Source: Pirellulales bacterium
GTDB taxonomy: Bacteria > Planctomycetota > Planctomycetia > Pirellulales > JAEUIK01
Direction of reading: 5' to 3'
NCBI GenBank assembly: GCA_019636335.1
Contig: JAHBXR010000008.1
Location: 124,001 to 188,000, forward strand
Length of the DNA stretch: 64,000 nt
Notes under the pieces: model-generated
The model's database searches: none
What the model was told of the DNA's origin: nothing
What the model saw: only the letters and a program-made list of their open reading frames with translations
Made by a program: the position numbers and the translations under genes
Part shown: positions 180-63,867 of the stretch, piece by piece
How the letters are laid out: every line of letters starts with the position of its first letter
Position numbering within the stretch: the stretch's first letter is position 1

Positions 180-2369
180 TTAACGCTGCATCACCCAATC
201 GAGTCCCATCAGTCGACCCGCATCGAGCGAGAAGACGAACAACATGAGACTCAAGATGAAGCACAGCCCCACGTATTGCAGGGCGATCGTCACCCGCTCG
301 CTGGCGGGTTTGCCGCGGATACCTTCCCACAGCAACAGCACCATGTGGCCGCCGTCCAAAAGGGGGATCGGCAGGAAGTTCACCACGGCCAGGTTGGCGC
401 TGAGCATGGTGAGGAAGAGCAATAACTCGGACGGTCCTTCGAAGGCCGACATGCCCGCCGCAGTGGCGATGCTGATCGGCCCTCCGAGCAACTTCACCGA
501 CAGGTGCCGCTTGGCCAGTCCGCGGATGAAGCGGTAGACCTGCAGCACGGCGTCCTTGGTCTCAGTCAGGGCAAAACCGGCCGCCGCGCCGAGCGAATCG
601 GCCTTGCGCGTCGCCGTCAGCGGCTCGAGCATCAACTCGTACACCCGGGCCGGATTGAACTGCTCGCTCGATTCGGCCGGCAACAACTCGACCGCCGGTT
701 GCTCTTGGCCATCCTTCGACACGACGAGCTTGACACGCGTGCCCGGGGGGTAATCTTGCACGGCAAAGAAGAGCGCCGCGCCGTTGTGATGCTCGTTGTC
801 GAACGGGAGGGACTTGGCCTTTTCGAAGGCCTGCTTCTGCTCCGCGGTCGCATCTTCGGGAGGCAGGAACGAGGCCGAGACGAGTGCTTCGCCCGCGGCG
901 AGCCCCGCCTTGGCGGCCGGACTATCGGGCGCGACTCTCGCAATCTTGTTGTCGACCTTGTAGGCGACGCCCAGGGCGCCGGTGCCCACCGCCATGTTCT
1001 CGGTGACGACCACGCCCGGCCAATCGCTCGACAACGGTTCGCGCAACGTGGCCGTCAATTGCAGGGGCTCGTTCTGGTCGGGGCGATCGACCGTCAGGGT
1101 GACGGTCTGGCCCGCGCGATCGCGCAGTCGCCCGGGGAGCGTCAGGGCATCGCCCAGCGGCTCACCATCGATCTTGGTAATCAGGTCGCCCACTTTCAGT
1201 CCAGCCGAGGCGGCAGGTGAATTGTCTTGAATCGCCGTAATGCGGCCGACCCCCAACTCGAGGCCGAGCGTGCGCAGCGGGCTCGGCGGCAGGCTGATCT
1301 TCACCTCCTCGTAGGGGGCGGGGGTCGCCACTTCGCCGGGCTTCGTTGGCGTGTCTGGCTCGGCTTTCACCGTTGGGCGACGCACGACCACTTGGACCGT
1401 CTTGTCGGGCATGCGCGACAGAATGGCGTCGATCTCGGCCGAGTTCGACACCGGAGCGCCGTCGACCGAGATGATCTCATCGCCAGCCTGGAAGGGGGGC
1501 GTCGTACGGCTGGCCGCTGAATCGGGCAGCACGGCCGGACGTTTGTCGCGTTCATGACGCGGACGATGGATGACGTTCGTGCTCAGACTCGCCACGCCAA
1601 TGGTGGGGAGCAATTGAGTTTCGCTATCGGGTCGAAGCGTCACGTTGATCGGCTCGGTCACGCCCGGCCGCTGAATGACCAGCTTCACGCCATCCTTGGC
1701 GCCGAAGGCGACTTCCGAGCGCAGATCCTGCTTGAAGCGAGGATTCGCGATGTTGCCGATCTGCAGCACTTCGTCCCCGGGGCGGATATCGGCCCGCCAC
1801 GCGGGCTGGCCGGGAAGCACGCTTCCCACGACCGAGGGGGTGTAGTCGACGCCGATCACATAGGCCGCCATCGCGCAGAAGAAGGCGAAGATCAGGTTCA
1901 TGATCACGCCGGCCGAGATGATCGCCATGCGTTGCGGCACGCTTTTGGCCAGGTAGCTGCGCGGATCGTGCAGCGCCGCTTCGGCGTGGGCAATCTCACA
2001 GGCATTCGGCGCATCGCCCCCCACAGGGGCTGGCGCGCCCGGCGTCTTCGAACGTTCGATCTCTTCGGCCAGACGGTTGGGGTTGTCTTCCTGGCCGAGC
2101 ATCTTCACGTAGCCCCCCAAGGGGAGTGCGCCGATGCCGTACTCGGTTTCGCCCCACTGGCGCTTCCAGAGCTTGAGCCCGTAGATGTCGAAGCCCAGGT
2201 AAAACTTCTCGCACTTCACACCGCACCACTTGGCGACGGCGAAGTGTCCCAGTTCGTGGACGAAGATCACGGCGCCCAGCGCAAAGGCCACCTCGAGAAT
2301 GACGAGGAGGTACTCGACGTAATACATGAAATCAAAGCCACCGGTGGCGGCAATCAAGTGCATACCCAA
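180..2369 (-). CDS. rseP: RIP zinc metalloprotease RseP (site-2 protease)
   Basis: This is an intramembrane zinc protease of the S2P/RseP family, which cleaves membrane-anchored anti-sigma factors and leftover signal peptides. An N-terminal membrane helix carries the zinc-binding HELGH motif at residues 38-42, followed by the conserved GALPLGGYVKM stretch. The second active-site motif, PIPLLDGGH, lies near residue 670 in a C-terminal membrane region. Between them are about four PDZ-like segments (near residues 180, 290, 390 and 490), so the protein is 729 aa against about 450 aa for the E. coli enzyme. The start overlaps the end of dxr by 16 bases, implying co-transcription and translational coupling. 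The third-codon ATG is an alternative start. Confidence 0.95.
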   Translation of the reverse strand: MGMHLIAATGGFDFMYYVEYLLVILEVAFALGAVIFVHELGHFAVAKWCGVKCEKFYLGFDIYGLKLWKRQWGETEYGIGALPLGGYVKMLGQEDNPNRLAEEIERSKTPGAPAPVGGDAPNACEIAHAEAALHDPRSYLAKSVPQRMAIISAGVIMNLIFAFFCAMAAYVIGVDYTPSVVGSVLPGQPAWRADIRPGDEVLQIGNIANPRFKQDLRSEVAFGAKDGVKLVIQRPGVTEPINVTLRPDSETQLLPTIGVASLSTNVIHRPRHERDKRPAVLPDSAASRTTPPFQAGDEIISVDGAPVSNSAEIDAILSRMPDKTVQVVVRRPTVKAEPDTPTKPGEVATPAPYEEVKISLPPSPLRTLGLELGVGRITAIQDNSPAASAGLKVGDLITKIDGEPLGDALTLPGRLRDRAGQTVTLTVDRPDQNEPLQLTATLREPLSSDWPGVVVTENMAVGTGALGVAYKVDNKIARVAPDSPAAKAGLAAGEALVSASFLPPEDATAEQKQAFEKAKSLPFDNEHHNGAALFFAVQDYPPGTRVKLVVSKDGQEQPAVELLPAESSEQFNPARVYELMLEPLTATRKADSLGAAAGFALTETKDAVLQVYRFIRGLAKRHLSVKLLGGPISIATAAGMSAFEGPSELLLFLTMLSANLAVVNFLPIPLLDGGHMVLLLWEGIRGKPASERVTIALQYVGLCFILSLMLFVFSLDAGRLMGLDWVMQR

Positions 2370-48331: not shown

Positions 48332-49291
<960 letters not shown>

Positions 49292-49797
49292 GGGGGGACA
49301 CATTCTCGTGGCTTGGCGGCAGTCGAGGCCAGGCGGCTAGCGAATCGTAGCGCCGGGGGAGGTGGACTGTCAAACCGACGCCAGGCGTAACCCACGGTGA
49401 GGACGTCAGTTGCGAACTGACCGGTCGCCCCGCGCGATCTCTCTTGTACGGCTAAGCGAACTTGACGCTGGCCTCTGTGGATGAGTACCCTAGAAGTGGC
49501 CACAAGTGATTGTCTTGCCGATATTTGCCGCACCCGAGTCCCTTCTGGTGGGTGCCGCAAGAGCGGAGAGGGACGAGTGGCCCGAAGAGGCGACTCGTCG
49601 AAAGTTGCGCGATCGCGCGATGAATGGAATACCGCGAGGGTGCATCATGCAAGGCATCCCCGCTGCTTGGCGCTACGCGACCGTGCCTGCATCGTAGACA
49701 CTGGGTATTGCGCCTGCTTGCCGTTTGTTAGATTGATCCACGCCCCGCGGCTTCCGGAACTCCGCCAGGCGACTGCTGGAATTAAGGGACTTCGTCG
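49292..49797. other. Gene-less region, nothing recognised
   Basis: About 500 bases between divergent genes. Short frames here are Arg-rich or overlap one another and look random. Promoters of the deacetylase-family gene (left) and the secreted HEAT-like gene (right) should lie here. No repeat or fold noticed. Confidence 0.4.
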
Positions 49798-50625
49798 ATG
49801 GCACTTCGTCATCTCCTGATGTGCAACGGGTGGCGCCGTCGAGCCGTGCCGCTCGCGGCCGTGCTCGGTATCGCCTGGGGCAGCTTGCAGGCGAACGTGG
49901 CTTGCCTGGCGCAGGCTCCCGCGGCACCACCTGCCGCCGCACCTGCTGCTGCGCCGGCGCCGGCCGCTCCGGCACCTCGCTTCAAAGAGCAGTCGGAATT
50001 CAAGGAACCGACGGGTTCGAAGATCGGGATGATCAAGGTCCTGGCCGAAGGGCAGATCACCGATCCAAAGATGTTCGACGACTGGTGCCGGTTCCGCGTG
50101 GCCGAATTCACGCTCGGCAAGAACGCGGCGCTGCTGCCCGAAATGCGGAAGAAGCTCAAGCAGGATATGCAGCGTGCGAAGGATCCGGCGCGGACGCAGG
50201 CGGTGAACCGGTTTCTTGCGCACACGCGCGAGATCATCGCCGATGGGGCGTACTCTCCCACGGCCCGCGTGAACGCCATCTTGATCTTGGGTGATCTCAA
50301 CAAGACGGAGCCCAATTTTCAGGGCTCAGGCACCGTGCCTCTGCCAGAGGCGCAGGTCGAATTGCTCAAGCTCATCGACAACGCGGGGCCGGTGGACGAT
50401 CTCAGCGATGCGCTGCGGGCGGCGGCCTTGATCGGGCTCCAACGTCACGCCGCCGGACCGATGAGCGAAGACGTCAAAAAGAAACTCAGCGACGAGTTGC
50501 GTGCCTTGGCTCAAGCGCAGACGCCTCCCGCGGGCCGCTCTCCCGATGTTCATGATTGGCTCTCGGGGCGCGCGAAGGGGATTCTCGAGGCGCTAGGCGC
50601 CGGCGCCAGTGCCACGTCTCCCTAA
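49798..50625 (+). CDS. Secreted helical-repeat protein, unknown
   Basis: The 275-aa product has an N-terminal signal segment (RRRAVPLAAVLGIAWGSLQ) and an Ala/Pro-rich linker (residues about 40-60). The rest is a helical domain (RVAEFTLGKN, ILGDLNKTEPNF, LRAAALIGLQRHAAGP) with HEAT-like character. Function unknown; likely periplasmic. It precedes another, much larger repeat protein by about 110 bases and may be co-transcribed. Confidence 0.65.
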   Translation: MALRHLLMCNGWRRRAVPLAAVLGIAWGSLQANVACLAQAPAAPPAAAPAAAPAPAAPAPRFKEQSEFKEPTGSKIGMIKVLAEGQITDPKMFDDWCRFRVAEFTLGKNAALLPEMRKKLKQDMQRAKDPARTQAVNRFLAHTREIIADGAYSPTARVNAILILGDLNKTEPNFQGSGTVPLPEAQVELLKLIDNAGPVDDLSDALRAAALIGLQRHAAGPMSEDVKKKLSDELRALAQAQTPPAGRSPDVHDWLSGRAKGILEALGAGASATSP

Positions 50626-50732
50626 CGTCGCCGTTGTTCGTTCGCTCGTGTGGTTGAAGTTACAGTAGTTACGGATAGATGTCCTGGCGTTGATCTCGTT
50701 TCGTGGCTCGTGGCGAATGGATTTGCCCGACC

Positions 50733-53552
50733 ATGTCCCACACTCTCTCATCACCAGCGTGCATGGATGCCCGCTCTTGCTCCATCGCAAGTGCCGCGGC
50801 TCTCGCTACGCGCGCTTGGGTCCGACTGTCGCCGTGCCTGCTGTGCCTGGCGATCGTCGGTTGCCAGACGCTGAACCTCAGTGAGCGACCCGACGCGCTG
50901 GCGACAACGTCCGAGGCGCCCGATGCTGACGCCAGCGCGCCCTCTTCAACCGCGGCCACGAACGCCGCCAGGTCGAAGGGGGAGTCGAAAGGGGAAAAGC
51001 TCGCGCCCGAGGAAGTCGAGCGCGAGGCGGCGCTGGCCGACGTCGAACGTCAACTGGGCAGCGACATCTGGTTTCAGACTTCGCGCCGCGCGGGGGAGAT
51101 CGACTGGCTGCGCGATCACCTCAACGATCAGGCGCCGGTGCTGCAAGCAGGGAGCGCCGCGGCGCCGAACCATCGCACTTCAAAACCGACCGCCAGCGCT
51201 CCGAGCGAATACCGCTGGCGTCACGTCGGCGTGGAAGAAATCCTCGCGCGTCCTGCCAAGAAACGACCGAACCTGCGCGTGGCGTTGAATTCGACGCGGC
51301 GGGTGGTGGCGGCCAACGCGGCGATCGCCCTGGCGCGCCAGGACGACACCACTTGCCTGCCGACGCTGATTGCTTCGGTGGAAAGCAGCGAATTGAATCT
51401 TCCCTGCCGCCGCGCGGCGGCCGAGGCGCTCGGCTACCTGGACACAGCCGCGGCGCAACCGGCCCTGCACGAGTTGCTCGACGAGTATGGCCGCTTTGGC
51501 GAGGGAGTTCGTAGTTATCTCCCCGAGTTGCACGCGGAGTTGTTGCGGGCACTCGCCCAACAAAATGCACCTGGCGCCGAGCAGCGTTATGCCGCCGCCC
51601 TGAAGAGCCAGGCCGCCGAGGTGCGGATCGTCGCGCTGGCGGCTCTGTCGCAGAACCCGGGCGTGACACTGCCTCCGCAAGCCCACGAACTGCGTTACGA
51701 TCCCGATCGCCGGGTACGTCAGGTAGCGCTCCTGGCGCTGGCCAAGTCGGGCTCGCCGGAGGCGGTGGCGACCATCGCTTCAGGCCTGCGCGATCACGAG
51801 TTGCCCGTGCAGCTCGCCTCGATTCGAGCGCTCGGGCAACTGGGAGGCGAGGGCTCGCGCGTGCCGCTCGAAGAGCAACTGGGCGCTCAGCGTCCCGAGG
51901 TGATTCGCATCGCCGCGGCCGAGGCACTGGTAACGATGCAATCGGAGTCGTCCTTGTACCTGGCCGTGCAGGACCAATCGTGGCGCGTGCGCGCGGCGGT
52001 GGCGCGCGGCATCGGCGGGTTCCGGGGAGCGGGACCGGGCAAGCTCGCCGCGCGGCTTCTGACCGATCAGAGTCCGATGGTGCAGGCCGCCGCGGTCGAG
52101 GCGATTGCGGCGTGGCCTTTTGAAGAGGCGGCCCCCTTGTGGCTGCTGGCCGTGCAGCGGCCGGGCTATGCGACGAAGAAAGGGGCGCTCGCGCACCTGG
52201 CCGAGCGCTGGTCGGAGGCGACCAACTTCCCGATCGATGCGCCGTTCGACGCGCAGCGCGAGGCGTTGGGTGCCCTCGAACGTCGCGCGGCCACCGAACA
52301 GATCGTTGCGGCCGCGGTCGATGAAGAAACGGACCTCAAATCACTCACCACGCAGGAAGTCGACGCGCCGCAAGTGGCACAGGTTGCCTCGCCGGTGCAG
52401 CCCGTGGCTGGCGCGAATGCGGGCGCCTCGCTCAACACGGCTACCTTGGCTCCGCAGACGAGCGAGACGGCGTATAGCATACAACTGGCGCGGGTCGATC
52501 AACTGCTGTCGATCGTCGATCAGGCTGGCGCGAACGCGAACGATCGCGCCGCAGCCCTGGCTGCATTATCGGCCATGGAAGATGATTTGCTTGCGCCCCT
52601 CACGGTGCTCGCGCTCGAGCGTGGCCGGCCCATTCCCGAGGCCCTCTACCGCCACGTGCTCCCCGAGCGCGATGCGGTCTTCGAGGTGCTGTTGCAACTC
52701 GACGCCGCGGAGATCGTCGAGCGGCGTCGCGCGGCGAGCTCGCTGGTCGCACGAGTCCGTGAGCGCCCGCTATCGCGTTTGGCGCTCGTGCGCCTGGTCG
52801 AGAAGGTCATGGTCGAGCGCGATGCCGACGTGTGGCGGAGCGCGCTCGTGGTTACCGCCTCTGAACCGGACGAGGCCGCGGTGCGACTGGCGTATGCGGC
52901 ACTGACGCACGAAGCGCCCGACGTGCGCCGCCGCGGCTGCGAGTATCTGGCCCAGCATGCCGACCCGCGCCACGTGACGGTCTTGCTGCCGAGCTTGACC
53001 GATGCCGATCCAACCGTGGTGCGAGCGGGCGTTCGCGCGCTGGGGGAACCGGGCATGCTGGCCGATCCGCGGCCCGTCGAAACGCTGCTCGCCACGCCCG
53101 ATCGCTTCGTCCAGCTCGAAGCGGCACGAACCCTGGCCCGCGCGGGGCACGAGAGTGGCCGCGCGGCGCTGGAGCGTCTGGTGTACGATCTCGATCTCGA
53201 CGTGCGCATGCAGGCCGTGCGGATGATGGGCGAAGTTCCCCACGCCGAATACACCGCGGCGCTGATGAATTCGCTCGACGGGCCGCCAGGGTTGAAACGA
53301 GCCGCCGCGGCGAGTCTGGCCAATGTCGTGGGACAGAACATCGGCCGCGGCAACGACGTCACGCCACCCACGCTCGACGAACAGGCCATTCGCTGGCGGC
53401 GCTGGTTCGAGCGTGCGAACGAGTCGGCGGCGGTACAGCCCGCCGTGGCCAGGCGCCCGTCGGCGAACGCTCCGCTCTCCGTGGCCGCGCCGGCGAGCGA
53501 TCAAAGCCAGAGCCGGGCCACGTCGTACCAGCCGCGCAGCGACGGGCGGTAG
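50733..53552 (+). CDS. Large predicted lipoprotein with HEAT/armadillo repeats
   Basis: About 939 aa. The N-terminal signal segment ends with a lipobox-like LAIVGCQTL, and an Ala/Ser/Glu linker follows. From about residue 170 there are many HEAT-like repeats of the type ALARQDDTTCLPTLIASV, RAAAEALGYLD and VAAVEAIAAWPFEE, continuing to near the C-terminus. Such repeats form elongated scaffolds. The first start could be GTG 50703, ATG 50733 or ATG 50763; I chose 50733 without strong evidence. The last 52 bases overlap the 3' end of ecfT on the other strand. Confidence 0.7.
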   Translation: MSHTLSSPACMDARSCSIASAAALATRAWVRLSPCLLCLAIVGCQTLNLSERPDALATTSEAPDADASAPSSTAATNAARSKGESKGEKLAPEEVEREAALADVERQLGSDIWFQTSRRAGEIDWLRDHLNDQAPVLQAGSAAAPNHRTSKPTASAPSEYRWRHVGVEEILARPAKKRPNLRVALNSTRRVVAANAAIALARQDDTTCLPTLIASVESSELNLPCRRAAAEALGYLDTAAAQPALHELLDEYGRFGEGVRSYLPELHAELLRALAQQNAPGAEQRYAAALKSQAAEVRIVALAALSQNPGVTLPPQAHELRYDPDRRVRQVALLALAKSGSPEAVATIASGLRDHELPVQLASIRALGQLGGEGSRVPLEEQLGAQRPEVIRIAAAEALVTMQSESSLYLAVQDQSWRVRAAVARGIGGFRGAGPGKLAARLLTDQSPMVQAAAVEAIAAWPFEEAAPLWLLAVQRPGYATKKGALAHLAERWSEATNFPIDAPFDAQREALGALERRAATEQIVAAAVDEETDLKSLTTQEVDAPQVAQVASPVQPVAGANAGASLNTATLAPQTSETAYSIQLARVDQLLSIVDQAGANANDRAAALAALSAMEDDLLAPLTVLALERGRPIPEALYRHVLPERDAVFEVLLQLDAAEIVERRRAASSLVARVRERPLSRLALVRLVEKVMVERDADVWRSALVVTASEPDEAAVRLAYAALTHEAPDVRRRGCEYLAQHADPRHVTVLLPSLTDADPTVVRAGVRALGEPGMLADPRPVETLLATPDRFVQLEAARTLARAGHESGRAALERLVYDLDLDVRMQAVRMMGEVPHAEYTAALMNSLDGPPGLKRAAAASLANVVGQNIGRGNDVTPPTLDEQAIRWRRWFERANESAAVQPAVARRPSANAPLSVAAPASDQSQSRATSYQPRSDGR

Positions 53553-54385
53553 AACAGCTCGGCCAGGTAGAGCCAGTACAAGAGCTTCACTGTCGCGATG
53601 CCGATCCACGTCGCGGCGAGCGTGCCGAGCATGAGCCACTCGATAGAACGGAAGCGGAGTGCCGGGTAGTAGGTGCGGCGCTCGAGCGGATCGAATCCTC
53701 GACTGGCGACCGAGGCTGCCAGGGTCGTCGCGCGGCGCAATCCCGCGGCGAGCACGGGATAGAACAGCGCCACTTCGCCGCGGAGCGAGAATCGCGTGGT
53801 GCGAGACCCGCCGTAACCGCGTAGTCGGCGCGCCCGGCGGACAGTGGCCAACTCGTCGGCCAAGAGGGGAAGAAACCGCAGGGCCGTGACCGTGGTAAAG
53901 CCAATCGCCACCGGCACGCGCAGGCGCCCCAGCGCCGCCAGCAATCGCTCGGGACTGGTCGATAGGCAGACGGTGAGACCTGCCATCATCACGGCGAGCA
54001 ATCGCAACGATTGCGTCAGACCGTACAGCGCGCCCTCGCGTGAAAGGGACAGTCCCGACCATACTCGGCCGTTCCATTCGAAGGGTGGAATCAAGCGCAC
54101 GAGCACCGTGCGCGGCAATTCGGCATAGAAGAGCGCCTGGCTGAGCAGCGTGCTCCACACGATGGCTAGCAAAAGAGCGAACACGACCAGCCATGCCGTT
54201 GCCCTCATGCGGAGTGCGACGACCGACAGCGCGGCCACGATGAACAAGGTCGCCAGCGCGGCGGTGCTGTCGAGAACGATGCTCAGGGTCGAAACCCAGG
54301 CCAGCCAGGCCAGCTTGAGGCGCGGATCGAACCGCGTGAGCCACGGCGCGCCGTGCGCGTCGGAGAGAATGAGTCCGCCACTCAT
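53501..54385 (-). CDS. ecfT: ECF transporter transmembrane protein EcfT
   Basis: EcfT is the membrane coupling subunit that joins the ATPases to the substrate-binding S component. The 294-aa protein has about five helices in the usual arrangement and two coupling motifs with the x-R-x pattern: RRARRLRGYGG and ASVASRGFDP. The start at 54385 overlaps the stop of the upstream ATPase gene in an ATGA junction, so it is translationally coupled. A longer frame upstream begins inside the ATPase gene and is not used. Confidence 0.9.
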   Translation of the reverse strand: MSGGLILSDAHGAPWLTRFDPRLKLAWLAWVSTLSIVLDSTAALATLFIVAALSVVALRMRATAWLVVFALLLAIVWSTLLSQALFYAELPRTVLVRLIPPFEWNGRVWSGLSLSREGALYGLTQSLRLLAVMMAGLTVCLSTSPERLLAALGRLRVPVAIGFTTVTALRFLPLLADELATVRRARRLRGYGGSRTTRFSLRGEVALFYPVLAAGLRRATTLAASVASRGFDPLERRTYYPALRFRSIEWLMLGTLAATWIGIATVKLLYWLYLAELFYRPSLRGWYDVARLWL

Positions 54386-56049
54386 GCTCGAAGCTCCTGG
54401 GCCAGCTCCGCTGGAGTCCAACCGAGCAGCCCGCGTTGTCTGCGCAGCTCGAGCAGTGGCGTGCGCAGCAGTCGGGCTTGCCGCAGAAGCTCGTCGCGGG
54501 CGATGAACTCTTCGGGCGTGCAGTCGGCCAGCAGTTGGCCACCCGTCAGCACCAGCACGCGATCGGCATAGCGCGCGACAGAGCGCAAATCATGCGTGGC
54601 GAACAGCACCGCGCCGACCGGCGCGGGACCTTGCAAGGCGGCGGTGATGGCCTGCATCACGCGTTCGACCTGGCGCAGGTCTTGTCCGGTCGTCGGTTCG
54701 TCGAGCAGCAGAACGCGCGGCGCGAGGGTGAGCGTAGCCGCCACGGCGGTGCGCAGCCGCTCTCCCTGGCTGAGGGCCATCGGCGGCTCGTCGAGCATGT
54801 CGACCAGGTCGAGCGCTCCAGCGGCATTGGCGACGCGTCGATCCACCTCGCCGGGATCGAGCCCCAACTGCCGCGGCCCGAAGGCCAGTTCCTCGCACAC
54901 GGTGGCCGAAAAGAGCATCAGGTCGGGGTTCTGCAGCACGAGCCCGATCGCCGCGCGGTCGCGGTCGATCGCGGGCGCGTCGACCTTTCCTTCGCTGGGC
55001 CGCATGACTCCGGCCAAGACGGACAGAAGGGTGCTCTTGCCCGAGCCATTCGGTCCGACGAGTGCCACGCGCTGGCCCGATCGAATGGCAAAGCTCAACG
55101 AGTTCCAGATCGGTTCCGCGCGTCGCGAGAAGCGATGGGTGAGTTGCTCGACGCTCAGCAGCCGTGACGGCGAATTTCTCTTGGTGACTGAGTGTGAAGG
55201 CCCGCTCGCGGTCGGCTCCTCTCCCGCCGGGGATGAGGGGATGTCGCCAGCATGAGAGAACAAAGCATGCAGCGATTGTCCGCTTCGCACGGCCAACTCG
55301 TAGAGTTCCGGCGGATCGAGGTCGTGCTGCGCGAGCGCGGCGTGTACGCGTGCGACGTCGCGCGGATCGAGATCGGCCACGAGCAGGCCTTCGTCGATCA
55401 CGAGCAGCCGATCGGCATGGTCGATGATCTCGTCCAACCGATGCTCGGCAGTGACCAGGGTCAGCCCCGCCTGGCGCAAGTCGTCGAGCGTTTGCAGCAG
55501 TTCGCCCGCGGTGGCGCGATCGAGCTGGCTGAGGGGTTCGTCGAGCAGCACGATCTGGGGTTCCATCGCCAGAATGCTCGCCAACAGCAGGCGCTGCTTC
55601 TGACCACCGGAGAGATGGGCCGTGCGGGCATCGCGGAATTGGGCGAGTCCGACCCGTGCGAGGGCCGCGGCGACGCGCTCGCCGATCTCGGCCTCGTCGA
55701 CCGAAAGATTCTCCAACCCGAAGGCGACTTCGGCCGCCACGGTGGTGCTGCAGATCTGATCGTCGGGCGATTGGAACACGATGCCGACGGTGCGGGCAAG
55801 CTCGGCCCTGGTGATGTGGCGCGTGTCCCGGCCATCGAGTTCGACCCGTCCCCGCATGGTGCCCGCGGTGTGATGCGGAATGAGTCCCGCCAGCGCGCGC
55901 AGCAGCGTCGACTTGCCCGAGCCGGTGCGTCCCGCGAGGAGAGTCCACGTGCCCGGCTCGAGTGTGAAATCGATCTCGGCCAAGGACGGAACCGTTCGGC
56001 CGGCGAATGTGTAGCCGAGATCGACGACCTGCAGGGGGGGAGTACTCAT
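54382..56049 (-). CDS. Fused double ATPase of an ECF transporter (EcfA-EcfA')
   Basis: This 555-aa protein contains two ABC ATPase domains in one chain, comparable to YkoD. Domain 1 has Walker A GRTGSGKST (40-48), LSGGQKQR and IVLLDEPLSQLD. Domain 2 has GPNGSGKST, LSQGERLR and VLLLDEPTTGQD. A linker of about 60 residues separates them. Both domains keep all core motifs. The start ATG overlaps the stop of the upstream gene (ATGA) and its stop overlaps ecfT, giving a tightly coupled operon. Confidence 0.93.
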   Translation of the reverse strand: MSTPPLQVVDLGYTFAGRTVPSLAEIDFTLEPGTWTLLAGRTGSGKSTLLRALAGLIPHHTAGTMRGRVELDGRDTRHITRAELARTVGIVFQSPDDQICSTTVAAEVAFGLENLSVDEAEIGERVAAALARVGLAQFRDARTAHLSGGQKQRLLLASILAMEPQIVLLDEPLSQLDRATAGELLQTLDDLRQAGLTLVTAEHRLDEIIDHADRLLVIDEGLLVADLDPRDVARVHAALAQHDLDPPELYELAVRSGQSLHALFSHAGDIPSSPAGEEPTASGPSHSVTKRNSPSRLLSVEQLTHRFSRRAEPIWNSLSFAIRSGQRVALVGPNGSGKSTLLSVLAGVMRPSEGKVDAPAIDRDRAAIGLVLQNPDLMLFSATVCEELAFGPRQLGLDPGEVDRRVANAAGALDLVDMLDEPPMALSQGERLRTAVAATLTLAPRVLLLDEPTTGQDLRQVERVMQAITAALQGPAPVGAVLFATHDLRSVARYADRVLVLTGGQLLADCTPEEFIARDELLRQARLLRTPLLELRRQRGLLGWTPAELAQELRA

Positions 56050-57971
56050 CGCGCGGTGCTCCGCAATCGTTGCCCGAGGGCCGCACCGGCGAGCGCGCCG
56101 ATCGTGCCGTAGAGCACCCCCACGATGAGCGCCACCGCCGTGACGTACCAAGTGGCAAAGAAAAGGCGCACGAGTAATTGCATCAGGCAGAACTGGGCAA
56201 ACAGCACGAGCCCATTCGCCAGGCCGATGGCGCCGGCGGTACGCCAGCGCGTCGACCATCTCGAGAACGTTGTTGCCTCATCATGAGCAAAGGTGCTGCG
56301 CGTCGTCACGCCGGCGAGCGCGAGCAGCGTTTCGTTGCAGACGATGCTCACCGTGACGAAGACGACGTCGAGCAGGCCGAACTGCCCGCTGAACATGGCG
56401 TTTAACAAGAAGACCGTGAGGCTCGACACCGTGACGGTGCCGGGGCGAGGGACGAGCACGACCAAGGCCGCCAGCACGAGACAGGTGAGTCCTTCGTTGC
56501 CGACACCGGCAAGGAAGATGGCAAAAGGACCCGCCACGGCGGCGATCACGTCTCCTGCGATGCGCGAGCCGAACGACACGGCAAAGTGGAGGGCCGCCAG
56601 CATGCCGATCACGGCCAGGCTCGTCGTGCCAAGCGAGCCGATCCAGCGTCGCCCGACGCAGAAGAAGAGGAGCCACGCCACGGCCGAAACGACCAGCGAC
56701 GCAGCCGCCACCGTGGCCACGACCGGGTTGCCCCGCACGACGCGCAGCGGCGCATCGATCGAGTAGAGCGGCGCGGCGCTCCCAGCGAGCGAAACGCGGA
56801 TCTGGCGCACGTAGTCGCCGGGGGACGTCTCGGGACGCACAAAGAGCGGGATGACGGCCCAGGCGGTCTCGCGCGGAGGCACGCGCAACAGGTGTACGGC
56901 CGTGGCCGACTCGCGCGGCGCCGCCCAAACGGGCGGGGCGAAGTTCAACAGCGGCGCGTCACCACTCGCGGCGACCACCTCCGACTCGAGAAGCAAATTG
57001 AGCGGTACATCGCTGCGATTCTCGATCGGCAAGCCCTGGTAGGCGTACGGCCCATGAAAGTTGAAGACCCGTTCGGTCGGCTGCAACCAGCGCCGCACGG
57101 TCGCCCAGACCGCGTCGGGAAGCGTAACGGTGTCTCCCTGGCGTTCTGGCCGAGGGCGCCCTTGGGGATCGCAGGGGAAGGCCACGTTGCCCGGCGCGAT
57201 CAGTTCACGTAGTCGTTCGCGCGACACCCGCTGTAGCTCGAGCGTGATCGACTGTTCTTCCGGAGGCATGGCGTCAACGCGTCGCACGATCACCTCGATG
57301 CGCGCCGTGTCCGCGTCGGCGCGCAGGCGTGCCTCGCCGAGCACCTGCGCGTAATCGTGCTGCACGTTCAATCCGAGCGTGCGAACGTAATCGCCTGCGT
57401 CGGTGTGTTGCAGATCCGGATCTTCGCTGTTGAGATCCATGCTCTGCTCCGGGCGCAGCATGATCTCGAATCGCGCGGGCGTCTGCACGAGATTCTCGAG
57501 CACGAGGCCGAACGAGAGCTGTCCATCCTCGGGCAGCAGCGCCCGCCAGACAGGGGGCTCGCCCAAGGGGACGCCCCCCTGACCCCAGGGGGCCTCGAGG
57601 GTCCCCCGCCACGTTGGTTTTTCCGGCGGCGCCGTGACGGTGGTGTGAAGCTGGCGGTCGGCAAGCTGCCATTCGAGCACGTACGTCGTGCCGGGCTGCC
57701 AGTCGAAGGGGACGTCGAACGCACGACGTTGTCCGGTCAGCGGAAGCTCTCGCTCGAGCGTCCCCCCTGACGTGCGAACCAAGAGTCGCTCGGCGGCGAC
57801 GGGCTGGGAAAAGTGGACACTCAGGCCGAAGTGGGTGAATTCGACCTGCGGAGGCGCGAGTTCCGCCTGCGAAGATTGCCGCTCGCAACCGCCCCCCAAC
57901 AGCACGCACACGACGAGCGCGACGATGCCGCGCGCGGCGCTAATGCACAATGTGAACCTGGTGCGTGCCAT
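56046..57971 (-). CDS. Extracytoplasmic domain fused to an ECF S-component-like membrane region
   Basis: The 641-aa protein starts with a signal or lipoprotein-like segment (LLGGGC, Cys29; the lipobox is imperfect). A large extracytoplasmic beta-rich region of about 400 residues follows (VEFTHFGLSVHFSQPV, ENRSDVPLNLLLESEVV, ETSPGDYVRQIRVSL). The last 200 residues contain about six hydrophobic helices (for example AGDVIAAVAGPFAIFLAGVGNEGL and FGLLDVVFVTVSIVCNETLL) in an order compatible with ECF S components of the MptD/YkoE type. The substrate is unknown; the position before the ATPase and EcfT genes implies it is the S subunit. The fusion seems unusual. M1 at 57986 is an alternative start. 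Confidence 0.65.
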   Translation of the reverse strand: MARTRFTLCISAARGIVALVVCVLLGGGCERQSSQAELAPPQVEFTHFGLSVHFSQPVAAERLLVRTSGGTLERELPLTGQRRAFDVPFDWQPGTTYVLEWQLADRQLHTTVTAPPEKPTWRGTLEAPWGQGGVPLGEPPVWRALLPEDGQLSFGLVLENLVQTPARFEIMLRPEQSMDLNSEDPDLQHTDAGDYVRTLGLNVQHDYAQVLGEARLRADADTARIEVIVRRVDAMPPEEQSITLELQRVSRERLRELIAPGNVAFPCDPQGRPRPERQGDTVTLPDAVWATVRRWLQPTERVFNFHGPYAYQGLPIENRSDVPLNLLLESEVVAASGDAPLLNFAPPVWAAPRESATAVHLLRVPPRETAWAVIPLFVRPETSPGDYVRQIRVSLAGSAAPLYSIDAPLRVVRGNPVVATVAAASLVVSAVAWLLFFCVGRRWIGSLGTTSLAVIGMLAALHFAVSFGSRIAGDVIAAVAGPFAIFLAGVGNEGLTCLVLAALVVLVPRPGTVTVSSLTVFLLNAMFSGQFGLLDVVFVTVSIVCNETLLALAGVTTRSTFAHDEATTFSRWSTRWRTAGAIGLANGLVLFAQFCLMQLLVRLFFATWYVTAVALIVGVLYGTIGALAGAALGQRLRSTAR

Positions 57972-59685
57972 ACAAGTCGAAACCATCGGGCGTCGGTGCG
58001 GGAACTTCCGTCACCGCGATCCAGCGCCCGTCGGCGCTGATGTCGGCATTGAAGATGACGGGACCTTCGGTCGCGTAGTAGTACACCAGCTTGTCGCTCC
58101 CACCGCCAGGACGGGCGAGATCGAAGAGCAGAAAGCCGAACTGCCCCGGCTCGCCTGCGCCCGGCAGTTCGCGGCAGGTCACCATCAGCCAGCGAGGATC
58201 GGCCTCCCCCTCGGCTCGATTGCACCACACGCCCGACAGCGCGAACGGACCACGATAGCGCCAGCGGACGGAGCCTTCGAGCCCCAAGGCCGTCAGCATG
58301 TTGGCCCCGCGATGGGGCGCGGGGGCCTGATGGGCCGCCTGCGGGCTGCCGAAGGGGACGTGCGAGTTTTGCGTCTCGAAGTAGATGGTGTCGCCAAAGG
58401 CCCGCGTGTAGCTGCAGGCGGCAGCGACGGGAAGGCCCCCGACCAGCACCGGCGTGCCGAGTTCAAAGGTCTCGACTCGCGGCGGCCGACCTGCTTGAGG
58501 CAGAAAGAGCAAGGCGCGACCATCGGCCAATCCGAGACCGAAGCGATCTCCTCGTGGCGAGACGGCCACCGAATCCCAGGCCTCGAGTCGTTGAAAGTGT
58601 GGCTCGAGCGGGTTCGGCGAGTAGCGGTAGACGACCTCTCCCGAGAGTCCGTCGAGTTGATAGAACGTGTTGCCGCGGACGCGCGGTTCCGCCTCGGGGG
58701 AGATCGGCGGATTCGCCAGGAAGACGAGCTTCGTACCGGCCGCATCGATCGCGGCATGCGTGATCGACAGTTCCGCGGCACGCTCGCCCGGGAATTGCCA
58801 GAGCGTTTTCCCATCGGCAGAGACGGAATAGAGCATCGAGCGGACGCGGGGCGTGCCGCCGACCGACCAACTGTGCAGTCCCACCACGAACAGCCGGCCA
58901 TCGTCGCTGACGGCGAGATCGTGTACGGCCGGCAGCGAGTAGACTCCGTATCGATCCCCCGGCGGTAGACGGCTCGACTCGAGTTGATCGGCCAAACGTA
59001 ACGTCCAAATCCGCCGGAATGCCTTGGCGTTACCATGCTCCGAGGGGAGGGCGAGGGCGAAGAGATTCGCATCGGGACTCTGCTCGCCGACGTAGAGCTG
59101 CCGTCCATCGGGGGACCAGGCGAGCTGCTTGATCTGCCCTTCGCTGATGCGCTGGTGATGAAGCAGCTTGCCGGTAAAGATGTCGACCACGCGGAGATGC
59201 CCCGCCAACGTGCCGATGGCGAGGAGTCGATTGTCGGGCGAAAAACGCACGACACTGTCGGGGGGCGTGCCCGTGGCGGCTCCCATGCCGGCGCCGGCCG
59301 AGGCCGAGGCGTCTTCGAGCGGGATGGTGCGCACGAGGTAGGGACTCGGAGCAGCCGGAGCACGCATGGCTTGCTCTGCTTTACGATCGACGGTGATGCG
59401 ATACTCGGCGCGCGGTTGCCAATCGAAGAAGAGGATCTGCCGCTGGCTCGATCCCTCGTCGAGCGTGACTGAATCGTCGATATCGATGGCGTTGCCCGCG
59501 GCATCGCGGATCGAAACGTCGCCGGGAACGCTAACGGAAAGGCCTTGGCGAACGAATTGCACAGGGTCTTGGGCCATTGCCTGATTGACAATCAAGCAGA
59601 GCAGCAAAGCCAGCCGTGGCACGCGGCGCCAAATTATCAGCGCGAATGCGTTGGTTCGCGCACCACGCGCACCACTGCGGACCAT
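57940..59685 (-). CDS. Exported beta-propeller protein, first gene of the ECF operon
   Basis: About 581 aa. A signal-type hydrophobic segment (PRLALLLCLIVNQAMA) is followed by WD40/YVTN-like repeats: RFSPDNRLLAIGT, AWSPDGRQLYVG, AVSDDGRLFVVGL, AVSPRGDRFGLGL and ISADGRWIAVTEV. It is predicted to be periplasmic or surface-exposed. Its last bases overlap the next gene by 32, so it belongs to the operon. The start is uncertain because the preceding codons are made of a 10-base repeat; GTG 59622 or the ATG at 59895 are alternatives. Function unknown; perhaps it presents or senses the transporter's substrate. Confidence 0.75.
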   Translation of the reverse strand: MVRSGARGARTNAFALIIWRRVPRLALLLCLIVNQAMAQDPVQFVRQGLSVSVPGDVSIRDAAGNAIDIDDSVTLDEGSSQRQILFFDWQPRAEYRITVDRKAEQAMRAPAAPSPYLVRTIPLEDASASAGAGMGAATGTPPDSVVRFSPDNRLLAIGTLAGHLRVVDIFTGKLLHHQRISEGQIKQLAWSPDGRQLYVGEQSPDANLFALALPSEHGNAKAFRRIWTLRLADQLESSRLPPGDRYGVYSLPAVHDLAVSDDGRLFVVGLHSWSVGGTPRVRSMLYSVSADGKTLWQFPGERAAELSITHAAIDAAGTKLVFLANPPISPEAEPRVRGNTFYQLDGLSGEVVYRYSPNPLEPHFQRLEAWDSVAVSPRGDRFGLGLADGRALLFLPQAGRPPRVETFELGTPVLVGGLPVAAACSYTRAFGDTIYFETQNSHVPFGSPQAAHQAPAPHRGANMLTALGLEGSVRWRYRGPFALSGVWCNRAEGEADPRWLMVTCRELPGAGEPGQFGFLLFDLARPGGGSDKLVYYYATEGPVIFNADISADGRWIAVTEVPAPTPDGFDLYGTHQVHIVH

Positions 59686-59686
59686 G
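59658..59686. repeat. Three tandem 10-base units (GCGSACCA)
   Basis: Units GCGCACCAC, GCGCACCACT and GCGGACCATG lie in a row and include the candidate start codon of the propeller gene on the minus strand. They are related to the four-unit array at 59793-59832. Confidence 0.6.
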
Positions 59687-59792
59687 CGGTCGTTCCGCAA
59701 GCCGCGGATCTGGCAGCAAGTTGTTGGGCAGTGGGTAGTTGCGCAGCGAAGACCGGGCTGTGCGCTGAAGCCTTGATGAGGCATCCGAATAC

Positions 59793-59832
59793 GCGCACCA
59801 TCGCGGACCACCGCGCACCATCGCGCACCAGC
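59793..59832. repeat. Four tandem 10-base units upstream of the ECF operon
   Basis: Units starting GCGCACCATC, GCGGACCACC, GCGCACCATC and GCGCACCAGC follow one another with a strict 10-base period, equal to one helical turn. This would place identical faces for a DNA-binding protein on one side of the helix. It may also be a simple slippage array. Confidence 0.6.
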
Positions 59833-60270
59833 GATCGCTCGGGCCGAGGCATGCAGGGCGGCATTCGATGGCAGGCTGGGCGTTGTCGCGGTCATGGCCT
59901 TGGGTAGACGAACGTGACTTTGGGATACGCAGCGTGGGTAGACGTTTCATCCTGGGGGGAAACGACGCGCGCGATGGCTAGCGGCGTTCACTTTACCTGT
60001 GGTCGCGCCTCGCCGCGCCTGCGATTTTCGGCCACCGCGATGGCGACGGCGGGACGCCGGAGGGACCCGCCGTAGATGATGAAAGGGGGCCGGCCGAGCA
60101 TTGTCTAGATTTATGATGATTATAGAAAAAATTGCCTACCTTAACCCCTGCCTGCCTGGGAGGGGTGTGTTATAAAAACACCTTACTCAATCTTGCGAGA
60201 TTCTTTGCGCGGTGTCGAACGGAAGCAGTTCGGCCGTCGCGCTGGTTCGATATCGTAGCCGACGAGCGCC

Positions 60271-60387
60271 GTAGGTCAGGTACTCCGTACCGGACATTCC
60301 ACGGAGACGGCCCCGTCGCAGCGAGCTGGCGAAGGTGAACTCGCCGCGCTCCAATAGGTTGTGTCAGGTACGGAGTACCTGACCTAC
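60271..60387. repeat. Pair of palindromes upstream of the fadJ-like gene
   Basis: Two 21-base sequences at 60271-60291 and 60367-60387 are exact reverse complements of one another, each containing GGTACTCCGTACC or its complement. The second, with neighbouring bases, forms a palindrome GTCAGGTAC-GGA-GTACCTGAC (60363-60383); the first has one mismatch. They lie 72 bases upstream of the fadJ-like start at their nearest. Confidence 0.75.
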
Positions 60388-60458
60388 AAGACACGAAGGT
60401 CGCCGCCGAGCGACTTTCCACCGCACACCAACTACATCTTTCCGAGGAACTATTTGCG

Positions 60459-62600
60459 ATGGCCGACGCACCCAGCATCAAGCTCGAGATGGTCGAAGGG
60501 GACATTGCCGTCCTCACGTTCGACGCCCCCGGTAAAGGGGCCAATGTTCTCTCATCTCACGTGATGCTCGAACTGCAGAATCACCTCGACGAGCTCGAAA
60601 AGCGCAAGGGTCTGGCCGGGATCATCCTTCGTTCGGGCAAGCCGGGCGCGTTCATCGCCGGAGCCGACATCACCGAGTTCGCCTCGGCCAAGGAGGTGAC
60701 CAAGGAACAGATCGTCGAGATGACGACCCGTGGCCGGCAGCTCTTCCAGCGGCTGTCGAAGGTGCCGTGCGTCACGGTCTCGGCCATCGACGGCGTCTGT
60801 CTCGGCGGTGGCGCCGAGATGTCGCTGTGGTGCGATCGCCGCATCATGGCGAACGATCGCAAGACGCAGTTCGGCTTTCCCGAGGTGAAGATCGGCATCT
60901 ATCCCGGCTGGGGGGGCACGGTCCGGGCCCCGCGCGTCGTCGGTCTGGCCAACGCCGTCGAGTTGGCCTGCAGCGGCGAGCCGTGCGATGCGGAAGCGGC
61001 CTACAAGATGGGGCTCGTCTCCGACGTCGTCGCTCCCGAGAAGATTCAAGACGCGGCGATTCGCCTCGTCCGCGCCGAGCAGAAGTCGGGCGAGTACAAG
61101 CAAGATCGCGAGCGTTGGAAGGGGGGGCTGCCGCTCGACGACACGGAGCTGACGTTCCTCTTCGCCACCTCGCAGGGCTACATCCAAGGGCAGACGAAAG
61201 GGCAGTACCCGGCGCCGCTGGCCTGTTTGAACGTGATGGTGCAGTCGGCGCGACTCGACGAGGACGCCGCTGGCACGGCCGAGAGCCAAGGCTTCGCCGA
61301 CCTGTTCGGTTCGCCGGTGAATCGCTCGCTGATCAACGTCTTCTTGCTGACCGATCGCAACAAGAAGGACACCGGCGTCGCCGATCCGACGATCAAGCCG
61401 AAGCAGCTCAAGTCGGTGGGGGTGTTCGGGGCGGGCATCATGGGGGCCGGCATCGCGGCCGCCACGCTCCGCAAGGATTACACGATCACGATTTCGGACG
61501 CGATGCCCGCCGCGCTCGAGAAGGGGGTCAAGAACGTTCTCGAGGCGGTCTCGTACGACAAGAAGCTCCGGGGACCGAGCCCGAAGAAGCTGCTCGAGAA
61601 TGCCCCGCGCGTGAATGGCACGCTCAGCGATGCCGAGTTCGCCGGTTGCGATCTGATCATCGAGGCGGTGGTCGAGAACCCGACGGTCAAGAAGGATCTG
61701 TACGCCCGGATCGAGCCGCTGCTGAAGGACGACGCCATCCTGGCGACGAACACGTCGACGATTCCGATCAGCCGGCTGGCCGAGGGGCTCAAGCGTCCCG
61801 AGCGATTCTGCGGCATCCACTTCTTTAATCCGGTGCGCAGCATGCCGCTGGTCGAGGTGATCCGCGGCGCGAAGACGAGCGACGAGACGGTGGTGACCGC
61901 CGTGGCCTACGCCAAGGCGATCGGCAAGTCGCCGATCGTGGTGAACGACGGCCCGGGCTTCCTGGTGAATCGCCTGCTGTTGCCCTATATGAACGAGGCG
62001 CTCGAGTTGATCCTCGACGGCGCCGAGATCAAGGCGATCGAGCGTGCGGCGAAGAACTTCGGCATGCCGATGGGTCCGATCACGCTGTACGACGTGGTGG
62101 GCATCGACACGGCGGTCTTCGCCGGCTCGGTGCTGCGAGACGCCTTCCCCGATCGCGTGGTGGAGTCGCCGCTGTTGCCGGCGATGTACACGGCGGGCCG
62201 CTTGGGGCAGAAGTCGGGCGTGGGCTTCTTCTCCTACAAGGATCCCAAGAAGAAGGGCGCGCCGGATCCGACGCTGGGCGACATCATCAACCCGCTGATC
62301 CGCAAGCAGGAGAAGTTCACCGACGAGCAGATCGTCTCGCGGTTGTTCCTGCCGATGCTGCTGGAAGCGACGCGTATTCTCGACGAGAAGATCGTGCGCG
62401 ATCCGCGCGACGTGGATCTCGGGCTGATCTTCGGCACGGGCTTCCCGCCGTTCAAGGGGGGCCTGCTGTTCTGGGCCGACACGCTCGGCGCGAAGAAGAT
62501 CCTCGAAATGCTGAAGCCGCTCGAATCGCTGGGTGCCCGGGCCAAGCCCACTCCCATGCTCGAACAACTGGCCAAGGAAGGACGCGGCTTCTACGGCTAA
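60459..62600 (+). CDS. fadJ: Bifunctional enoyl-CoA hydratase / 3-hydroxyacyl-CoA dehydrogenase (FadJ-like)
   Basis: The 713-aa multifunctional beta-oxidation protein combines hydratase and dehydrogenase. The N-terminal crotonase part keeps both hydratase Glu positions (FPEVKIGIYPGWGG and AVELACSGEP) and the oxyanion segment IDGVCLGGGAEM. The dehydrogenase starts near residue 320 with the NAD motif GVFGAGIMGAGIAAATL, followed by IIEAVVENP, NTSTIPI and FFNPVRSMPLVEV. The C-terminal domain is complete. It is followed 109 bases later by a thiolase gene. Confidence 0.92.
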   Translation: MADAPSIKLEMVEGDIAVLTFDAPGKGANVLSSHVMLELQNHLDELEKRKGLAGIILRSGKPGAFIAGADITEFASAKEVTKEQIVEMTTRGRQLFQRLSKVPCVTVSAIDGVCLGGGAEMSLWCDRRIMANDRKTQFGFPEVKIGIYPGWGGTVRAPRVVGLANAVELACSGEPCDAEAAYKMGLVSDVVAPEKIQDAAIRLVRAEQKSGEYKQDRERWKGGLPLDDTELTFLFATSQGYIQGQTKGQYPAPLACLNVMVQSARLDEDAAGTAESQGFADLFGSPVNRSLINVFLLTDRNKKDTGVADPTIKPKQLKSVGVFGAGIMGAGIAAATLRKDYTITISDAMPAALEKGVKNVLEAVSYDKKLRGPSPKKLLENAPRVNGTLSDAEFAGCDLIIEAVVENPTVKKDLYARIEPLLKDDAILATNTSTIPISRLAEGLKRPERFCGIHFFNPVRSMPLVEVIRGAKTSDETVVTAVAYAKAIGKSPIVVNDGPGFLVNRLLLPYMNEALELILDGAEIKAIERAAKNFGMPMGPITLYDVVGIDTAVFAGSVLRDAFPDRVVESPLLPAMYTAGRLGQKSGVGFFSYKDPKKKGAPDPTLGDIINPLIRKQEKFTDEQIVSRLFLPMLLEATRILDEKIVRDPRDVDLGLIFGTGFPPFKGGLLFWADTLGAKKILEMLKPLESLGARAKPTPMLEQLAKEGRGFYG

Positions 62601-62709
62601 GGCCACGCGTCGACTTCCTGCTGAAAACAAACACCCCGACCAATAAACTTCACAAGCGCCGCACGACGAGACCCGAACGCGGCACTCATTGCACCGGAGA
62701 TAGAAATCG

Positions 62710-63867
62710 ATGAAATCGGCCGTCATCGTTGATTGCATTCGCACTCCCGTCGGACGCGCCCACAAGGAGAAGGGCTATTATCGCGACGTCCGCTCCGATG
62801 ACCTGGCGGTCGCCGTCTGCAAGGCGCTGATCGAGCGTTCGGGCGTCGATCCGAAAGAGATCGAAGACATCGTGCTGGGCAACACGCAGCAGACGGGCGA
62901 GCAGGGCATGAACGTGGCCCGCGTCGTCGGCCTGATGGCGGGGTTGCCGATCGAGTCGGGAGGCACGACGGTGAATCGCCTGTGCGGCTCGAGCCTGCAA
63001 GCGCTGCACCAGGCGACGCACGCCATCATGTCGGGCTTCGAAGATTGCCAGATCGTGGGTGGTCTCGAGCACATGGGTCACTTTCCGATGGAAGCCGGCG
63101 CCGACCCCAACCCGAAGCTCTTCCACCGCACGTCGAAGGCCGCGCTGGGCATGGGCTTCACGGCGGAGTTTCTGGCCATGACCCAAGGCATCTCGCGTCA
63201 GGAGCAGGATGCCTTCGCCGTGCGCAGCCACCAGCGTGCCGCGGCCGCGCATGCCAAGGGAGAATTCAAGCGCGAGATCATCCCCACTTGGGGCAAGGAT
63301 GAAGAGGGCAACCGCGTGTTGCTCGACACCGATCAATGCGTGCGTGCCGATTGCAGCATGGAAGGACTCTCGGCGTTGAAGCCGGCCTTCGTGCCGGGCA
63401 TGGGCACCGTGACGGCGGGCAACAGTTCGCCGCTGAATGACGGCGCCGCGGCGATGTTGGTCATGTCGGAAGAAAAGGCCAAGTCGCTGGGGCTCAAGCC
63501 GCTCGTGCGCATCAAGGCGACGGCCATTGCGGGGGTCGACCCGGCGGTGATGGGCTCGGGCCCGATCCCCGCCACGAAGAAGGCGCTCGAGCGTGCCGGC
63601 ATGAAGATCGAAGACCTCGACGTCATCGAGCTCAACGAGGCCTTTGCCGCCCAGGCGCTGGCCTGCATTCGCGGTCTGAAGCTCGACGAGGAGAAGATCA
63701 ACGTCCGCGGCGGCGCGGTGGCCATCGGCCATCCGCTCGGCGCCAGCGGTGCTCGCATTACGACCACCCTGGTAAACAACATGATCGATCGGGGCGCGAA
63801 CGTCGGTCTGGCAACGATGTGCATTGGTGTCGGCCAGGGCATCGCCACTATTTTTGAACGAGTGTAG
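62710..63867 (+). CDS. fadA: Acetyl-CoA C-acyltransferase (thiolase, FadA-like)
   Basis: Thiolase cleaves 3-ketoacyl-CoA to acetyl-CoA and a shortened acyl-CoA. The 385-aa protein has the nucleophile Cys92 (RLCGSSLQALHQA), catalytic His341 (AIGHPLGASGAR) and the second Cys371 (MCIGVGQG). VKRLEELNEAFAAQAL-type segment DLDVIELNEAFAAQALA is also present. With the upstream fadJ-like gene it forms the trifunctional-type pair of beta-oxidation. The start ATG is preceded by a purine-rich GGAGATAGAA stretch. Confidence 0.94.
   Translation: MKSAVIVDCIRTPVGRAHKEKGYYRDVRSDDLAVAVCKALIERSGVDPKEIEDIVLGNTQQTGEQGMNVARVVGLMAGLPIESGGTTVNRLCGSSLQALHQATHAIMSGFEDCQIVGGLEHMGHFPMEAGADPNPKLFHRTSKAALGMGFTAEFLAMTQGISRQEQDAFAVRSHQRAAAAHAKGEFKREIIPTWGKDEEGNRVLLDTDQCVRADCSMEGLSALKPAFVPGMGTVTAGNSSPLNDGAAAMLVMSEEKAKSLGLKPLVRIKATAIAGVDPAVMGSGPIPATKKALERAGMKIEDLDVIELNEAFAAQALACIRGLKLDEEKINVRGGAVAIGHPLGASGARITTTLVNNMIDRGANVGLATMCIGVGQGIATIFERV

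Follow-up and report, generated by a model that had tools for sequence, protein, structure and literature searches.

The planctomycete operon described here contains genes for an S component, a fused double ATPase and EcfT. As predicted from the genes and the modelled fold, these three genes form the core of an ATP-driven group I (dedicated-module) ECF importer, whose S component, the C-terminal membrane domain of a larger protein, represents according to the model a family that is absent from Pfam and NCBIfam. The large domains that this protein carries outside the membrane, and an exported β-propeller protein encoded next to it, are a separable accessory pair, and both are absent together in the genomes with a bare S component that were tested. 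The assignment to a group I core with a new S family is supported by the S fold and by the gene neighbourhood, since each of the 24 loci that were read (the window included) has the double ATPase gene beside the S gene, and 21 of them have the EcfT gene; the remaining three stop at a contig edge. The recurrence of the order S, ATPase, EcfT in 24 loci indicates that it is not due to chance.

The window, i.e., the whole stretch of 64,000 nucleotides that was analysed, carries the four overlapping genes on the minus strand between positions 53501 and 59685. The layout given in the preliminary description, with overlaps of 32 bases between the propeller and S-fusion genes and of ATGA at the S fusion/ATPase and ATPase/EcfT junctions, was confirmed to the base when starts and stops were placed on the window:

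57940..59685, minus strand: exported β-propeller protein, 581 aa (ATG at 59685, stop at 57940-57942)
56046..57971, minus strand: S-component fusion protein, 641 aa (ATG at 57971, stop at 56046-56048; AlphaFold2 models)
54382..56049, minus strand: double ECF ATPase (EcfA-EcfA' fused), 555 aa (ATG at 56049, stop at 54382-54384; PF00005 in two stretches)
53501..54385, minus strand: EcfT, 294 aa (ATG at 54385, stop at 53501; PF02361)

As read from the sequence, the N-termini of the propeller protein and of the S fusion are signal-like. Residue numbers and models of the S fusion were counted from an upstream ATG at 57986, which gives 646 aa; subtraction of 5 gives the numbering of the 641-aa form. 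At the other end of the operon, the EcfT gene (minus strand, ending at 53501) overlaps tail to tail, by 52 bases, a HEAT-repeat gene of the plus strand that ends at 53552.

The membrane domain, the ATPase and EcfT

With the full-length model of the S fusion, the fold search was swamped by the Ig-like domains; therefore, the membrane part (positions 56049-56714 of the window) was predicted separately with AlphaFold2, using 23 aligned sequences. The resulting model has a pLDDT of 91.6 and a pTM of 0.87, and the following elements were assigned to this part of the protein:

56634..56711, minus strand: extra transmembrane helix TM0, the link between outside domains and S core (helix 2-27 of the model; hydropathy)
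56049..56630, minus strand: six-helix S-component core of an undescribed family (AlphaFold2 model and fold searches; Glu552 invariant in 23 sequences)
56580..56594, minus strand: AxxxA motif in helix 1 (A465 and A469, counted from the ATG at 57986), equivalent to the motif by which S components contact EcfT

The best PDB match of the membrane model in Foldseek was 5edl (E 0.018, probability 1.00), and the same entry, YkoE, was the best match in VIA-align, with a Z of 14.9 over 172 aa at 3.0 Å. All of the top nine rows of the latter comparison are S components (Z 10.8 to 14.9, those after YkoE at about Z 10-12); from the entry titles, we take these rows to be YkoE, ThiT, NikM, FolT, RibU and BioY. 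Unrelated folds reached a Z of 7 or less, with the exception of methane/ammonia monooxygenase chains. The preliminary description had called this domain S-component-like, a view that is borne out by the model and by its nine best matches; the case that it had raised against itself, a match of the helices to a membrane family foreign to ECF transporters, did not occur, as the helices match S components. As a separate observation, the S core reaches a Z of 10 to 10.7 with chains of the particulate methane/ammonia monooxygenases, scores similar to those of several true S components.

At the level of sequence, searches of Pfam, NCBIfam and the PDB with the membrane domain gave nothing beyond chance matches, even at E 10, and no Pfam or NCBIfam family was found for the whole S fusion. 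The sole ECF family that surfaced for the S domain was PF09819 (YkoE), at an E of about 1 (best approx. 0.97) and in 2 of 23 members; the comparison with ECF families by HMM, recommended earlier together with structure prediction, yielded just this one, and the S fold itself comes from the model. No match to the CbiM family of Pfam was obtained at E 10 among the 23 S members, and no protein over the PF09819 cut-off was found in the window's genome. Of the 23 S sequences, 22 have a small residue at the first position of the AxxxA motif and 11 have Ala at the second. It has been reported that S components dock on EcfT with this motif of helix 1 and that receptors with the S fold lack it (PMC11109136); in group I ECF systems the motif is not strict (PMC5037267).

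The two genes named beforehand as a double ECF ATPase and EcfT proved to be just that. The ATPase has two ABC domains (PF00005 in two stretches) and lies above the cut-off of TIGR04520 (E 2e-111) and of TIGR04521, and EcfT was identified as CbiQ (PF02361) with an E of 2e-24 in the Pfam search. EcfT carries two Arg-Gly coupling-helix motifs, LRG and SRG, that are largely kept in relatives, and a genome search revealed exactly one EcfT in the window's genome.

The outside domains, the propeller and their distribution

The extracytoplasmic region of the S fusion is real and large, as first described, except that its size in the AlphaFold2 model is some 380 residues instead of about 400; it consists of an N-terminal β domain of approx. 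75 residues and two Ig-like sandwiches. These domains, and the N-terminal domain of the propeller protein, are located as follows:

57627..57857, minus strand: first outside domain, shared with the propeller protein (AlphaFold2 model; hhalign; shuffles)
57225..57620, minus strand: second outside domain, an Ig-like sandwich (VIA-align Z up to 11.5 over 106 aa)
56733..57215, minus strand: third outside domain, Ig-like (VIA-align Z about 10, model range 262..417)
59365..59568, minus strand: N-terminal domain of the propeller protein, approx. residues 40-107 (hhalign; shuffle z 5.5)

In structure, the second domain matches macroglobulin-type domains (complement C3), whose fold is widespread. In the relatives at loci L018 and L019, the third domain bears a weak similarity to NEW3/NPCBM-associated domains (PF10633, E 0.026-0.05, below the cut-off). 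In several relatives a Cys follows the signal of the S fusion (VVGC, IGGC, LAGC), which suggests that these proteins may be lipid-anchored.

The propeller protein is formed by a Sec-type signal, the N-terminal domain and a WD40/PD40/PQQ-like propeller; in Pfam the propeller of the window gives only generic WD40-type matches, and its relatives match PQQ_2/WD40 models. When the N-terminal domain was compared by hhalign with the first domain of the S fusion, small alignments on both sides gave a Prob of 84.6 and an E of 6.9e-6 over 77 columns. Against shuffled sequences, the pair within one genome reached a z of 5.5 in the window and of 7.0 in G669, and two other genomes gave no signal. In the window, both N-terminal domains show the motif GLSV...FDWQPxxxY. 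The two domains are probably homologous, with a sequence signal that is moderate and, pair by pair, patchy; a shared N-terminal domain supports the idea that the S fusion and the propeller work together.

Of the 396 genomes of the order, 21 contain the S domain, which was also detected in four further genomes, belonging to other classes, from the phylum sample. Among the loci whose neighbourhoods were read, the S component is fused in nine (the window, G130, G297, G299, G059, G664, G669, G715 and G851) and bare, with about 200 to 280 residues, in 15 (families f4, f8, f23, f24 and f26, and G298 of f1). A full-length propeller, always as one match per genome, is present in eight of the nine genomes with a fused S component; the exception is G299, where the contig starts just upstream of the S gene. 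No full-length propeller was found in the 12 bare-S genomes tested, where the only matches were of the generic WD40 kind, 60 to 100 residues long. The position of the propeller gene varies, as it lies on a different contig from the S gene in G664 and G715 and comes after EcfT in G059 and G851. That the four genes always travel together, a point to be checked by a genome survey, does not hold, given the 15 bare S loci and the lack of the propeller from the bare genomes tested; conversely, homologous operons devoid of the ATPase and EcfT, which were to be looked for, did not appear, the ATPase being present in every locus and EcfT wherever the contig allows. In the phylum sample (n = 294) the propeller occurs in six genomes, five of which are exactly the five S carriers of the sample; in the sixth, G744 (91% complete), no S domain was found. 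The full-length propeller of G744 (L103, G744:C84:12084-13436) lies near a small HEAT-repeat gene, as in G715.

On a tree of the ATPase, the fused and bare states require four changes, with one independent pair on supported branches. A p-value for the raw co-occurrence (8/8 versus 0/12) was dropped because the tree supports this single independent pair, and the association of the outside domains with the propeller may have been inherited rather than repeatedly selected. A scan of sequence collections with the S protein gave no named relative; with FadA, encoded beside the operon, it gave one close match, on a Planctomycetaceae MAG contig that is too short to hold the operon, and a scan of viral contigs with FadB gave none. 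Some particular loci deserve a mention: at L016 (G047:C2, 9487-10115, in an assembly of 40 contigs) the gene of the bare S component is broken into two frames, by a frameshift or a sequencing error, and a selenocysteine tRNA is located at 15274-15369 of L048, near the G304 locus.

Possible function and ligand

ECF transporters are characterised by the absence of an extracytoplasmic binding protein, and it is the S component that catches the substrate. In the operon described here, the outside domains of the S fusion and the propeller most likely form one unit for ligand capture or docking. We consider it rather probable, with due reserve, that the whole is a group I ECF importer in which this extracytoplasmic unit binds a ligand or its carrier and passes it to the S core. 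The three outside domains would be held by the signal or a lipid anchor plus TM0 and, together with the propeller, would capture the ligand or its carrier and hand it over to the six-helix core, which would bind a small nutrient at the outer face or leaflet of the inner membrane. The core would then dock on EcfT via helix 1 and topple, driven by the fused ATPase, and TM0 may let it do so with the outside domains staying put. Capture would not be essential to transport, since 15 relatives work without the outside domains. A more specific form of this proposal, which we put forward tentatively, is that the Ig-like domains in the S fusion and the propeller, with the N-terminal domain common to both proteins, constitute a fixed two-protein receptor. 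This would take the place of the free solute-binding protein known from classical ABC importers, and would serve a ligand (e.g., bound, polymeric or carrier-held) that is too large or too scarce for a bare S component.

The main competing explanation, somewhat doubtful but with appreciable weight, is that an ordinary group I core is accompanied by outside domains and a propeller that act as a scaffold, as an anchor (to the wall, the outer membrane or other proteins) or as a gate, and not in capture. Both Ig-like domains and propellers serve as binding folds of a generic kind, and NEW3-like domains, which the third outside domain weakly resembles, are common in surface proteins; the Cys after the signal in several of the relatives' S fusions and the retention of the transporter in bare-S relatives also fit this explanation. 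However, the outside domains and the propeller travel with the transporter and probably share a domain, and an anchor of general use should also turn up in other places of these genomes, each of which gave a single full-length propeller match. It has also to be considered that the S-fold protein could be a sensor, as in the 5TMR kinases, with the ATPase and EcfT used for signalling or for mechanical work outside, and no transport at all. The S-component fold is common to receptors (PMC11109136), the outside domain is large and the 5TMR receptors too have an extra helix before the core; nevertheless, we regard this as very improbable, as the ATPase and EcfT are constantly adjacent, helix 1 is of the AxxxA type missing from receptors, no relative bears an output domain, and the bare-S relatives resemble plain ECF systems.

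Regarding the ligand, thiamine-related compounds had been guessed from gene order. In YkoE, thiamine is contacted by Tyr46, Trp49, Glu77, Gln95 and Asp131 (PMC5037267). In a MAFFT alignment of the 23 S sequences with that of 5edl, which represented YkoE in the sequence comparisons given here, these positions are mostly S/D, G, N, S and R, so that none of the five contacts is kept, in a low-identity alignment with its register set by sequence alone; in the same alignment the Glu of helix 4 is kept in 23 of 23. As expected with one sequence, hhalign of the S family against the single YkoE sequence gave nothing. No TPP riboswitch (THI-box) matched at the gathering score of Rfam in the window or in 23 relative loci, and of the 23 S carriers tested, 21 have ThiC (38 of 40 genomes tested overall). 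These results lend the guess no support, although the closest solved fold is nonetheless YkoE, and binding of the ligand probably differs from that of thiamine in YkoE. A transporter for thiamine or HMP, equivalent to YkoEDC plus extra outside domains, would agree with the order of the S, double ATPase and EcfT genes, with YkoE as the nearest solved fold and with the PF09819 matches of two of the 23 members (E about 1). It would agree as well with the lack of a ThiC match in the window's own genome (G000, 99% complete), a possible HMP/thiamine auxotroph or a possible assembly gap; against the contacts not kept in the alignment, the riboswitch not found and the frequent ThiC, we judge such a transporter to be improbable.

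A different ligand could be suggested by the neighbouring genes. Positions 48332-63867 of the window hold an HDAC-like gene, a small secreted gene, the HEAT-repeat gene, the ECF operon, fadB and fadA, a block that is conserved across the order. Among the carriers of the order whose flanks are long enough, nearly all have FadB and FadA next to the operon and divergent from it, in line with import of a fatty-acid-related substrate or a cofactor of β-oxidation. However, the HDAC-HEAT-fadBA block persists without the ECF genes in G257, G212 and G005, which lack the S domain, and there is no link to fadBA in G059 or in the carriers outside the order. Adjacency to fadB-fadA was therefore rejected as a functional clue and is explained as inherited gene order; a role in fatty-acid metabolism seems slightly less probable still than one in thiamine uptake.

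Comparison with known ECF systems

Within the group I ECF transporters, the operon is novel in its S family and in its domain layout. The preliminary description had suggested a new class of importer; the new family and layout stand, but the term is too strong for what is a variant of group I. A limited literature search found no description of ECF S components with outside domains, with propellers or with a link to planctomycetes; such descriptions may exist elsewhere. A lineage in which the S component acquired a large receptor outside the membrane along with a partner propeller, or lost them, would be a test of how toppling proceeds when the outside domain stays fixed, and would hint at ECF substrates of a new class.

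The system most alike is YkoEDC of Bacillus subtilis, a group I transporter of thiamine/HMP that likewise has an S component, a fused double ATPase and EcfT in a single operon. YkoE is the best structural match to the membrane domain (Z 14.9), and the PG and Glu anchors align by sequence; however, there is no significant sequence relation between the two (none by hhalign with a single sequence; PF09819 at E about 1). In contrast with YkoEDC, the operon described here has the extra helix TM0, about 380 outside residues and the propeller; no TPP riboswitch was found for it, and the thiamine contacts are not conserved in the low-identity alignment.

The nickel and cobalt systems NikMNQO and NikKMLQO are also of group I, and their S component NikM has an extra N-terminal helix (Z 11.8). 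These systems carry the additional components NikN, NikK and NikL (PMC2667541). Their accessories are separate proteins of other families, whereas here Ig-like domains are fused to the S component and a propeller is added; besides, unlike NikM/CbiM, the membrane domain is not recognised by the CbiM model of Pfam. The group II S components (ThiT, RibU, BioY, PanT and FolT) likewise have the six-helix fold (Z about 10 to 12) and a helix 1 of the AxxxA type, but they are bare and share a common module, while the module found here is encoded with its own fused S component. Finally, the 5TMR sensor kinases have the S fold with an extra helix, H0, and the N-terminus outside (PMC11109136); their outputs are cytoplasmic signalling domains, in contrast to the large outside domain and the ECF module of the operon described here.
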